Origin: Paludisphaera rhizosphaerae
GTDB taxonomy: Bacteria > Planctomycetota > Planctomycetia > Isosphaerales > Isosphaeraceae
Assembly: GCF_011065895.1 (NCBI RefSeq)
Contig: NZ_JAALCR010000034.1
Coordinates: 1-56,201, forward strand
Direction: 5' to 3'
Length of the DNA stretch: 56,201 nt
Positions within the stretch are counted from its first letter, which is position 1. The number at the start of each line of letters is the position of its first letter. The position numbers and the translations under genes were made by a program. The notes beneath the pieces are model-generated. The model saw only the letters and a list, made by a program, of their open reading frames with translations, was not told the DNA's origin and did not search any database. Below, one piece after another: positions 2,744 through 17,511 of the stretch.

Positions 2744-3211
2744 ATGACTTCGATCCTCGCACCCATAGACGACGCGACCGCCCGGTTCGACGACGACGGG
2801 TTCGAGTGGGGAATGGCTCTGATTCAGGTGCCGGACGTCCGCTCGGTCCTATCACAGCCCACGCGAATCGACGCCTGGGAGCGGTCGTGGTCGGAGCGGA
2901 CGCGCCCGAGAACGAGAGTTGGCCGTCCGCGTCGTCGGCTGCGTCGTGAGTTTCGCACGGCCGCCTGCGTCTGCCTGGTCTTCGCGCCGATCGCCACGGC
3001 GATTGGGGCCTGGGGACTGCCTCCGGTCCGGTCGGCTGCCGCCGCGCTGGTCGCTGATGCGACGAACGCCGAGGAGAACGCCGACGCTGGCTCGATGAAG
3101 ATTCGCCTCTCGATCAAGCCGGTCGAGGCCGAGCCCGAAATCCCCGTCGTCTTCCCGGGCTACCTTCTTCCCGACGAGCATCCCCAGGAGTCGTCCCATG
3201 AGGGAAGTTGA
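2744..3211 (+). CDS. Small single-pass membrane protein heading a CpsD/ExeA-like operon
   Basis: 155 residues with a GGGGCG ribosome-binding site. Residues 1-70 are charged and Arg-rich toward the end, one hydrophobic segment follows at about 73-97, and the rest (acidic, then Pro-rich, ending near PGYLLPDEH) would lie outside the cytoplasm. No recognisable domain. The stop lies 14 bases inside the next gene, which implies translational coupling. Its place before a CpsD-like and an ExeA-like ATPase suggests a membrane anchor or a reduced chain-length (Wzz-like) partner, but no Wzz motif is visible, so this is a guess from position. Confidence 0.6.
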   Translation: MTSILAPIDDATARFDDDGFEWGMALIQVPDVRSVLSQPTRIDAWERSWSERTRPRTRVGRPRRRLRREFRTAACVCLVFAPIATAIGAWGLPPVRSAAAALVADATNAEENADAGSMKIRLSIKPVEAEPEIPVVFPGYLLPDEHPQESSHEGS

Positions 3212-3959
3212 CGAGGCCCTAAGCCGAGCCTACGCCCAGCGGACCGAGGCGTCCGTCACGCCCCACTCACCGGCGCGGAGATCGCCGCCGGCTCGGCCGT
3301 CGCGGATCTTCATGCCACAGGCCCCCGCCGGAGCCGCTCTGGAGTGGCCGGAGGTTGTGGGGGTTCTGGAGCAGACCTGGGGCGATCGCTTTCGTCAGAT
3401 GGCCGACCGCATCCTGCAGGCGCGCGAACGCCTGGGCGTTCGTGTGCTGCTCTTCACAAGTTGCCACCGCGCCGAGGGCCGAACAACGCTCGTTCTGACC
3501 CTCGCCCGGACCCTCGCCCGCCGCCCGCTCAGGACGGTGATCGTCGACGCCGACCTCTCCGGCCCAATGCTGGCCCGGTCGTTGGGGCTTCGCACGACCG
3601 TCGGCCTGGACGACGTGATCGAGGACGGCAGGGACGTTGAGGATGCTCTGATCGAGGCTCCCGGCGAGAACCTCTGGGTTCTGCCGATGCGCGCGGCGGT
3701 CTCCCATCCGAAGGAGTTCCTGGCGAGCGCGGGCTGGGCCTGCGCGATGGCCAAACTTCGGCGCGATTTCGATCTGGTCCTGGTCGACGGCAGTCCCCTG
3801 TTCACGGGCCTCTCGGCGGCCGTGATGCACCGCTCGGTTGATGCGGCGGTGCTGGTCCACAGCCGTGACGCCACGGGCCAGCGTTCGATTTTGCGGGCTC
3901 GCGAGGTCCTCGAAGCCGGAGGCGTGCCCCTGCTGGGGCTCGCAGAAACCTTCGCCTGA
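3198..3959 (+). CDS. CpsD/BY-kinase-like P-loop ATPase with a degenerate Walker A motif
   Basis: 253 residues, soluble. After a Pro/Arg-rich N-terminus (1-45) a MinD/CpsD-type fold begins near residue 80: Walker A region SCHRAEGRTTL (88-98), Walker A' VIVDADLSG (114-122) and Walker B LVLVDGSP (192-200). In active bacterial tyrosine kinases the Walker A ends in GKS/T; here the lysine is Arg95 (CGA codon). There is no tyrosine cluster at the C-terminus, which ends LGLAETFA. It may therefore be a regulatory pseudokinase. It overlaps the upstream small membrane protein gene and is followed 31 bases later by an ExeA-like ATPase. In PEP-CTERM/exopolysaccharide loci the same two families occur together, which suggests a role in polysaccharide export. 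Confidence 0.75.
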   Translation: MREVDEALSRAYAQRTEASVTPHSPARRSPPARPSRIFMPQAPAGAALEWPEVVGVLEQTWGDRFRQMADRILQARERLGVRVLLFTSCHRAEGRTTLVLTLARTLARRPLRTVIVDADLSGPMLARSLGLRTTVGLDDVIEDGRDVEDALIEAPGENLWVLPMRAAVSHPKEFLASAGWACAMAKLRRDFDLVLVDGSPLFTGLSAAVMHRSVDAAVLVHSRDATGQRSILRAREVLEAGGVPLLGLAETFA

Positions 3960-3990
3960 GCGGACGGAACGGCGTCAGGAGGACGCGGGC

Positions 3991-4794
3991 GTGTACGAGG
4001 CGCATTTCGGGTTGGAGCGACGACCCTTCGGCGAAACCGCCTGCGCCTCGGCCTTTGTCGCGCTTCCCAGCCGCGCGGCCGCCCTGAGACGAATCCGGTA
4101 TGGCCTGGAACAGGGATTGGGGCCCGCCCTGCTCTACGGCGGCGTGGGAGTCGGCAAGACGCTGGCCGCGAATCGATTGGCCGCCGACATGGGCTCGCCG
4201 ACCGTCCACCTGACCTTTCCCTCGATGCCGGCCGTTGATTTGCTCGCCCATCTCGCCCATGAACTCGGCGGATCGCCTCTTGAGGTTTTCACAATGGCCG
4301 TCGCCCTGCGAAGGCTGCGTGAGGCTCTGGCGGAGCACGTCGCGAGAGGACGTCGGCCGCTCTTGATCGTCGACGAGGCCCAACTCGTCCAGGACGCCTC
4401 GGTTTTCGAGTCCCTTCGACTCCTGCTCAACTTTCAGTCTGCGGGAACGCCCGACCTGGCCCTGCTGCTCGTGGGGACGGGCGAAGTGGTCTTCCAGCTC
4501 CCCGGCGGCTTACAGGATCGGCTCGCGGCTCGCAGCCTGCTCCCGCCGCTGTCGCAGTCTGAAACGGCCGATTACATCGTCGGCCGGCTCGCGTCGGCCG
4601 GCGTGCATGAGTCGCTTTTCACCTCTGAGGCGATTCTCGACCTTCACCAGGCGGCCCTGGGTGTGCCGAGGCGATTGAACCACATCGCCGACCTCGCCCT
4701 CCTGATCGCCTACGCTGAAGGGATGCCGCAGGTCGATCCCCGGATCGTCGCCGTCGCCTCCCGCGAGTTCTCTTCAGAGCCCCTGGCTGCCTGA
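3991..4794 (+). CDS. ExeA/GspA-like AAA ATPase (PEP-CTERM locus type)
   Basis: 267 residues starting at GTG 3991, chosen because AGGAGG lies seven bases upstream and the product then begins VYEAHFGLERRPF, the usual N-terminus of this family. An upstream in-frame ATG would add unrelated residues encoded inside the previous gene. Walker A is GGVGVGKT (50-57), Walker B LLIVDEAQ (124-131), and a sensor region lies near LLLVGTGE. The C-terminal part has the PRRLNHIADLALL segment typical of ExeA-like proteins. There is no transmembrane segment and no peptidoglycan-binding domain, unlike full-length ExeA. Known relatives energise secretion or exopolysaccharide machinery; the partner here is probably the CpsD-like protein encoded just upstream. 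Confidence 0.85.
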   Translation: MYEAHFGLERRPFGETACASAFVALPSRAAALRRIRYGLEQGLGPALLYGGVGVGKTLAANRLAADMGSPTVHLTFPSMPAVDLLAHLAHELGGSPLEVFTMAVALRRLREALAEHVARGRRPLLIVDEAQLVQDASVFESLRLLLNFQSAGTPDLALLLVGTGEVVFQLPGGLQDRLAARSLLPPLSQSETADYIVGRLASAGVHESLFTSEAILDLHQAALGVPRRLNHIADLALLIAYAEGMPQVDPRIVAVASREFSSEPLAA

Positions 4795-16563: not shown

Positions 16564-16860
16564 GAACGCCCGACCCTGATAGAGGACGCTGCACTCCAGC
16601 GGAGAGGTCCGGGAGTTCGTCCTCGAGGCCCCCGCCTGCCCGTCAAGATAGTTCGCCCTGGCCGACTCGTGAGAAGACGTTGCCGCGTTGTAGCGAGAGC
16701 GGGCTCTCCGAAACCTGGCGGGCGGCGATGTTGAAACGGAGGCCCCCCTCGTCCCCATCGATCGCGACGCCGCGTTAGGTCCGCGAAGGAAGAACCGATC
16801 CTGGTTCTTCAAAGGCGTGGATTTCGCGGGCGCTTCATCGACATCACACCGGGAGGGGGA
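16564..16860. other. Intergenic region, nothing recognisable
   Basis: 297 bases before the second PEP-CTERM gene. No gene, clear hairpin terminator or promoter hexamers were found. A strong ribosome-binding site (GGGAGGGGG) lies at its right end. Confidence 0.4.
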
Positions 16861-17511
16861 ATGCTCAAGCACAGGGTTTTGTTGTTCGGCATCGCGTTTA
16901 TGACGACCGTCGCCTCCACGCAGGCGGCCTCGACGATCTATACGACGTCGTCGAGTTTCACGGCGGCCGCACCGGGAACGACGCTGCAGAATTTCGACAG
17001 CAGCCCGAACGACTTCAGTCCTCCGATCAGCGTCACGGGTTTCACGGTCAGCCAGTACGGCTCCAATCAGGGGCTGTATCTCGGCAACACGTCCTATGGA
17101 ACGAACCAGGCCCTGGAGATCACGACGAACACCGGCGGTGGGATCACGTTCACCTTCGCGTCGGCGATCACGGCCTTCGCGTTCAACGTCTACGATCTCG
17201 GAACCCTGACCGGAACGACGTCGCTGACCTACAGCCTGAGCAATGGCTCATCCTTTGATTCGGGGAGCTTCATCACGGGCTACCATAGCAATTCACATGG
17301 GGTCGAACAGTTCTTCGGTTTGACGAGCACGATCGGCTTCACGTCGATCAGCATCGCGAATTCGCAGGACGGGGACGTGGTGGACTTTGACAACGTCCGG
17401 TACGGTTTCGCGACCACCGCGGTTCCTGAGCCGTCCAGCATCGCGCTGCTGGGGGCCGGCCTGGGATTCGTCGGCGTCCGCCTGGTGCGGGGCCGTAGGA
17501 CTCGCTCCTGA
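16861..17511 (+). CDS. PEP-CTERM sorting-signal protein, Ser/Thr/Gly-rich
   Basis: 216 residues, preceded by GGGAGGGGGA. Signal peptide 1-22 (ends TQA). The body is rich in Ser, Thr, Gly and Asn with regular beta-like strands (ITFTFASAITAFAFNVYDLG, FTSISIANSQDGDVVDFDNV), resembling the beta-sandwich ectodomains common among PEP-CTERM proteins. The C-terminus is a canonical sorting signal: VPEPSS, hydrophobic IALLGAGLGFVGVRLV, then RGRRTRS. Predicted to be exported and processed by an exosortase; none is encoded in this window. Its lower GC, Ser/Thr-rich composition differs from its neighbours, as usual for this class. Confidence 0.9.
   Translation: MLKHRVLLFGIAFMTTVASTQAASTIYTTSSSFTAAAPGTTLQNFDSSPNDFSPPISVTGFTVSQYGSNQGLYLGNTSYGTNQALEITTNTGGGITFTFASAITAFAFNVYDLGTLTGTTSLTYSLSNGSSFDSGSFITGYHSNSHGVEQFFGLTSTIGFTSISIANSQDGDVVDFDNVRYGFATTAVPEPSSIALLGAGLGFVGVRLVRGRRTRS

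Follow-up and report, generated by a model that had tools for sequence, protein, structure and literature searches.

A BY-kinase-like protein without the P-loop lysine in a conserved three-gene block of planctomycetes: a candidate adaptor of an ATP-driven cell-envelope machine

In the window, i.e. the whole analysed stretch of 56,201 nucleotides of Paludisphaera rhizosphaerae DNA, three genes follow one another on the forward strand: the first reading frame encodes a small protein of 155 amino acids with a single transmembrane segment (2744..3211), the second a protein of 253 amino acids that resembles CpsD and other BY-kinases (3198..3959), and the third, which starts with GTG, an ExeA-like AAA ATPase of 267 amino acids (3991..4794). 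The 3' end of the first gene overlaps the second gene by 14 nt, and the stop codon of the latter is 31 nt away from the GTG at position 3991. The preliminary description had located the operon at 2744-4794 and had placed the CpsD-like protein between a small membrane protein and an ExeA-like ATPase with an intact Walker A motif, and our analysis bears this out; the P-loop of the ATPase reads GVGVGKT. Its statement that no gene for a polymerase, a transferase or a flippase is adjacent also appears to hold, as judged from the reading frames and from the neighbours shared between loci, with a Pfam search of the 516-amino-acid upstream neighbour only. The P-loop region of the CpsD-like protein reads TSCHRAEGRTT: the codons GCC GAG GGC CGA ACA ACG (3474..3491, forward strand; sequence and alignment) encode the degenerate P-loop AEGRTT, and as described before, EGRTT is found where kinases have GKS/T, with Arg95 encoded by CGA. 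We refer to this protein as the pseudokinase. A defence system was considered and rejected, as the three proteins had no match in PADLOC.

Judged by its profile scores, the pseudokinase is a distant BY-kinase. The NCBIfam models TIGR01007 and TIGR03018 match it with 87.7 and 82 bits, respectively (cut-offs 108.05 and 230.65), the Pfam family AAA_31 reaches 24.1 bits (cut-off 27), and the model NF047398 for ATPases with the KGGVGR variant stays at 28.5 bits, below its cut-off of 90. An AlphaFold model based on 25 family sequences has a pLDDT of 86 and a pTM of 0.78; the residues up to position 40 to 50 are poorly ordered, with the exception of an N-terminal helix. The top Foldseek match of this model is the kinase domain of Wzc (3la6, E 1.7e-14, TM 0.70), followed by VpsO, CapAB and BceF. 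A profile search against the PDB sequences resolves no further than the BY-kinase/MinD superfamily because the profile used (A4) includes three ordinary kinases.

The arginine in the P-loop is a property of the whole family Isosphaeraceae. A strong ortholog of the pseudokinase was found by profile search in 38 of the 45 genomes; of the remaining seven (G012, G019, G025, G033-G036), four are less than 80% complete. G025 was counted as block-free since its match is only at the level of ordinary kinases. Culturable carriers of the block are Singulisphaera acidiphila DSM 18658 (L015) and Paludisphaera soli JC670 (L008). EGR[TS] is present in all 55 loci read, among which many genomes are represented twice, by two records, and all 38 distinct sequences have arginine at the lysine position, encoded by CGA (5), CGC (10), CGG (21) or CGT (2). 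No ortholog with a normal GKT was encountered, and this conservation by way of four different codons rules out a single-strain mutation or a decaying gene. Likewise, the invariant columns in an alignment of 27 family sequences (A1) include T87, S88 and H90-R95. The protein of the window retains Walker A' in the form VDAD and Walker B in the form LVLVD, and in the family the second aspartate of Walker A' and the aspartate of Walker B are present in 38 of 38 sequences each, the first A' position being D in 36 and E in two. The C-terminal tyrosine cluster had been noted as missing, and indeed all 38 sequences are free of tyrosine in their 30 C-terminal residues. The EX2RX2R oligomerisation motif is found in two of the 38, a DTPP-type Walker B in none.

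Relatives of the pseudokinase are also present elsewhere in the class. When 297 genomes of the class were searched with the Isosphaeraceae profile, the family members (E up to 2e-94) were separated by a gap from the remaining matches, which include stand-alone relatives. With a broader profile (A5), a stand-alone group (near-full model, E up to 1.6e-39) was set apart from the Wzc-type frames, which are long (mostly 750-1100 amino acids). Among the matches listed, such a stand-alone relative occurs in 54 of the 252 sampled genomes outside the family. The resulting outside set comprises one locus per genome, stand-alone with a full or near-full model at E up to 1e-38, taken among the matches listed in two profile searches (down to E of about 1e-25 and about 2e-32); two fragments with an E-value of about 2e-37 (G160:C284 and G290:C785) were excluded. 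Beyond the class, a profile search of 343 genomes of the phylum gave five matches at E up to 1e-38, a strict cut-off at which weak members would be missed; two of the five belong to another family (f63) and were found by profile match only.

In the outside set, the position of the P-loop lysine is occupied by arginine in 25 sequences, cysteine in 11, alanine in six, valine and threonine in four each, serine in two and lysine in two (L093 and L143), and the first search profile, which was built from arginine-bearing sequences, could slightly favour arginine. Thus, 52 of the 54 outside relatives have another residue in place of the lysine, as compared to two of 23 control Wzc-type kinases (K in 21, A and R in one each), the controls being three kinases of the own genome and 20 that were picked by hand and not at random. 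The two exceptional controls, L174 (EGATT) and L184 (EGRTT), are independent lysine losses among the Wzc-type kinases. In addition, a frame of 927 amino acids in the own genome (C20:90906-94454), which is similar to a co-polymerase and a kinase and was left out of the controls, has the lysine-less P-loop DPGESSC and is possibly a fused pseudokinase. Loss of the P-loop lysine is therefore not restricted to the stand-alone pseudokinase family, as L174, L184 and this frame demonstrate. The second Walker A' aspartate is kept in 37 and lost in 17 of the 54 outside sequences, and the Walker B aspartate is kept in 53, with a gap in the remaining one. Among the last 30 residues there is no tyrosine in 40 outside sequences, one in 12 and two in two; the mean for the 23 controls is 2.65, with six of these also having none. 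EX2RX2R is found in three of 54 outside relatives versus 12 of 23 controls, and a DTPP-type Walker B in two of 54 versus 16 of 23.

An unrooted tree was calculated with a "quick" method from 14 of the 38 family sequences, the 54 outside sequences and the 23 controls. The branch that parts the controls from the 68 other sequences has an SH-aLRT support of 100, and the outside group itself has a support of only 24. The presence or absence of lysine needs at least five changes on this tree. Given this split and this number of changes, the alignment and the unrooted tree are most simply read as an old loss of the lysine in the pseudokinase family, with L093 and L143 having kept or regained it.

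The ATPase matches PF13401 (AAA_22) with an E-value of 2.7e-17 and has, in addition to its intact Walker A motif, the Walker B sequence LLIVDEAQ. With TIGR03015 it scores 116 bits, below the cut-off of 324.5, and it is the only near-full-length TIGR03015-like gene of its genome, which has two further partial matches. The AlphaFold model has a pLDDT of 91, and its Foldseek matches are TnsC, Cdc6/ORC, MuB and RuvB. The ATPase adjoins the pseudokinase in 36 of the 38 family sequences, the exceptions being L018, where the contig ends, and L122, where none was seen. Its P-loop lysine is present in 35 of the 36 family ATPases; a single genome (L016/L050) has glutamine. Outside the family, an ATPase on the same strand adjoins the pseudokinase in 38 of the 54 loci and is absent from the fetched stretch in 16, and all 37 readable proteins have the P-loop lysine. 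Three loci of one family (L091, L100 and L105; f4) that have no adjoining ATPase may represent a separate branch.

The small protein has an N-terminal LI-x-VP motif, an arginine-rich stretch ahead of the transmembrane segment and a C-terminal FPGYLLPDE...HEG sequence. In 18 aligned family proteins, L26, I27, P30, R64, R65, G139, Y140, L142, P143 and G154 are invariant, and LI-x-[VI]-P and GY-x-LP are common to all. Of 14 wide family loci, all but L112 have a match to the protein. Neither a Pfam nor an NCBIfam family matches the protein of the window above the cut-off; Rv2743c (18.6 vs 27.7 bits) and MIGRI (11.9 vs 28 bits) were considered and rejected. Four transmembrane proteins from outside loci also had no Pfam match above the cut-off. 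A frame with one transmembrane segment lies upstream on the same strand in 45 of the 54 outside loci and is missing from nine, in a search that accepted any reading frame of at least 90 amino acids with a hydrophobic stretch. Two motifs recur in these 45 frames: a VLxRLP-type motif ahead of the transmembrane segment in 23 (1.8 expected from shuffling) and ARLxGxI near the end in 14 (0.2 expected), both patterns having been defined post hoc from the sequences themselves. The VLxRLP-type matches in L085, L101 and L132 resemble chance. The VLxRLP and ARLxGxI motifs parallel the LIxVP and GYLLP motifs of the family.

The genes shared around the block differ between the family and the outside loci. 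In the family, a secreted-looking protein of 516 amino acids (855-2405 in the window), for which Pfam gave no match, is encoded upstream in 20 of 22 loci; 19 of the 22 have a repetitive gene of the PAPQAP type. In many draft genomes of the family (L009, L011, L012, L016, L018, L019 and L021 among them), as in the window (1 to about 800), the contig stops upstream of the pseudokinase gene, at a distance of about 2.7-3.7 kb; probably the repetitive gene breaks the assemblies there, and an rRNA operon was rejected as the cause since Rfam found none in four loci. The outside loci share a divergent MetH-like gene upstream (34 of 54; L085-L156), named by reading its sequence, and in 11 of the 22 family loci a MerR regulator with a B12-binding domain (L118:3458-4678) is encoded a few kb upstream. 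With MetH being of the cobalamin type, a B12 theme around the block is possible.

Our observations support, with about even chances, the idea that the three genes encode a single module of the envelope in which the pseudokinase, as an adaptor, links a membrane anchor to an AAA engine. The single-pass protein would be the anchor, with a short docking motif in the cytoplasm and its tail on the far side of the membrane. The CpsD-like protein would have kept the BY-kinase fold but would no longer be a tyrosine kinase, as the P-loop lysine and the tyrosine tail are gone; as a cytoplasmic adaptor it would dock on the anchor, perhaps through its MREVDEALxRAY motif, and hold or gate the ExeA-like ATPase. 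The latter would provide the ATP-driven step and would act, by way of the anchor, on some target in the envelope. Our data show the gene order, the overlap, the conservation, the replacement of the lysine in comparison to the control kinases, the preserved fold and the lysine of the ATPase; that kinase activity is lost, that the three proteins touch each other and that the task is envelope assembly, we infer. The preliminary description had proposed a detached module of a kinase-like subunit, which might sense, and an AAA ATPase, and the lysine-less subunit, the lysine-keeping ATPase and their conservation across genera and families agree with such a module, whereas its link to exosortases was not supported. 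More tentatively, and somewhat on the doubtful side, one might think of a class-wide three-part envelope machine that works apart from any polysaccharide or exosortase locus. In it, a BY-kinase fold whose P-loop lysine was lost close to the origin of its family would couple a single-pass protein to an AAA ATPase.

It is also conceivable, if rather unlikely, that the pseudokinase is a nucleotide switch, i.e. an NTPase of the MinD/BY-kinase type with arginine for lysine that binds ATP, perhaps with slow hydrolysis, and whose nucleotide state regulates the ATPase. Since the aspartates of Walker A' and Walker B have been retained, the pseudokinase may still bind nucleotides; moreover, the rest of the P-loop is conserved in the family and the arginine invariant, arginine is also the most common residue outside the family (25 of 54), and a model for ATPases with the KGGVGR variant exists in NCBIfam, even if the match is weak (28.5 vs 90 bits). 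However, the C, A, V, T or S found in 27 of the 54 outside relatives are unable to replace the charge, and 17 of the 54 lack the second Walker A' aspartate.

Less probable still is that the pseudokinase is of the EcpK/HfsB type and scaffolds a kinase-less PCP-2 co-polymerase for exopolysaccharide that is encoded elsewhere. Polysaccharide export requires EcpK and HfsB, both of them BY pseudokinases that stand alone (PMC12004946), and a membrane glycosyltransferase of the PMT_2 type (cluster c3, representative 7e-11) follows the module in eight of the 54 outside loci; a second cluster in four loci is weakly PMT_2-like (19.5 bits, cut-off 26.1). On the other hand, the shared outside neighbour is the MetH-like gene rather than exopolysaccharide genes, and EcpK has none of the three Walker motifs, two of which are kept here. 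Moreover, PF02706 and TIGR03007 match two frames each in the own genome, three in all (on C4, C60 and C20), and each of them also bears a BY-kinase-like stretch; thus, a free-standing co-polymerase for the pseudokinase was not seen with these two models, which could miss a divergent partner. For this reason, the adaptor model assigns the role of membrane partner to the single-transmembrane protein and that of the engine to the ATPase.

In the GspA/GspB system, an ExeA-type AAA ATPase is found next to the single-transmembrane protein GspB. The ExeA-type AAA fold (PF13401; similar to TnsC, MuB and Cdc6 by Foldseek) beside a single-transmembrane protein could thus be a GspA/GspB (ExeA/ExeB)-like pair that aids the assembly of a secretin or another envelope pore; the pseudokinase would then be an additional subunit. 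We regard this as quite unlikely: the ATPase of 267 amino acids has no Pfam match to a C-terminal peptidoglycan-binding domain, and the five transmembrane proteins scanned (that of the window and four from outside loci) do not match T2SSB.

Exosortases (PF09721) are present in 223 of the 297 genomes of the class, including all 45 of the Isosphaeraceae. The own genome has three matches, two of which are placed at C4:145504 and C60:14449, i.e. not on C34, and share their contigs with Wzc-type kinases that have the P-loop lysine (C4:148073 and C60:8855; GEGKTS and GDGKST). Seven of the 45 Isosphaeraceae have an exosortase and no block. Outside the family, as read by hand among the matches listed, 46 of the 54 block-bearing genomes have an exosortase compared to 132 of 198 block-free ones, a mild excess (Fisher p 0.007, uncorrected for kinship), and eight have the block and no exosortase match (G047, G048, G071, G074, G187, G221, G271 and G277). 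The functional tie to exosortases and PEP-CTERM proteins that had been proposed earlier thus finds its counter-examples in exosortase-positive relatives without the block, and any tie of the block to exosortases or exopolysaccharide is weak. The preliminary description mentions two PEP-CTERM proteins in the window, in which a simple and non-exhaustive tail pattern retrieved one clear case (frame 16735-17508, tail VPEPSSIALLGAGLGFVGVRLVRGRRTRS) and two doubtful ones. That the block is a relocated part of an exosortase/PEP-CTERM export system with an XrtA-type kinase and ATPase is the least probable reading, for although TIGR03018 (82 bits) and TIGR03015 (116 bits) are among the best NCBIfam matches and exosortases are more frequent in block-bearing genomes, the scores are far below the cut-offs (230.65 and 324.5), the exosortases on C4 and C60 adjoin other kinases, and block and exosortase also occur separately.

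To our knowledge, few BY pseudokinases have been described, each of them tied to a polysaccharide co-polymerase, and we found no planctomycete module of this kind in the open-access papers searched. In the block, lysine loss is the rule across many families of one class, and the adjoining AAA ATPase retains its P-loop. The natural series of R, C, A, V, T, S and two K offers a test of what the BY-kinase fold can do without catalysis, and the block is a candidate envelope machine in bacteria whose cell biology is poorly understood. If the proposed model is true, the BY-kinase fold has here a use other than the phosphorylation of tyrosine or the control of a co-polymerase. The closest described proteins are EcpK of Myxococcus xanthus and HfsB of Caulobacter, BY pseudokinases that act as scaffolds for a kinase-less co-polymerase in the exopolysaccharide and holdfast pathways (PMC12004946). 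They share with the pseudokinase the stand-alone BY-kinase fold, the absence of the tyrosine tail, the loss of one or more catalytic residues and a presumed action by protein contact; however, EcpK lacks all three Walker motifs and the pseudokinase of the block consistently only the P-loop lysine, and they are paired with a kinase-less PCP-2 rather than with a single-transmembrane protein and an AAA ATPase. The kinase and the ATPase of the XrtA/PEP-CTERM systems (TIGR03018 and TIGR03015) are the same two types of protein, TIGR03015 being the closest NCBIfam model of the ATPase and TIGR03018 the second for the pseudokinase, but the block scores far below their cut-offs, has no exosortase nearby, and its kinase-like partner is devoid of the lysine. 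With Wzc, CpsD and CapB, the pseudokinase shares the fold and the Walker A' and B aspartates, whereas the P-loop lysine and the tyrosine tail are missing, EX2RX2R is rare, and the protein is neither fused to nor encoded beside Wzz. Finally, the ATPase of the block resembles ExeA/GspA in its AAA_22 domain, its intact P-loop and the gene for a single-transmembrane partner and differs from them in that it has no peptidoglycan-binding domain and is coupled to a pseudokinase. Taken together, the recurrence of the three genes across the class, the near-universal loss of the lysine in the kinase-like protein and its retention in the ATPase suggest that a kinase fold has been turned into the adaptor of an ATP-driven machine of the cell envelope.
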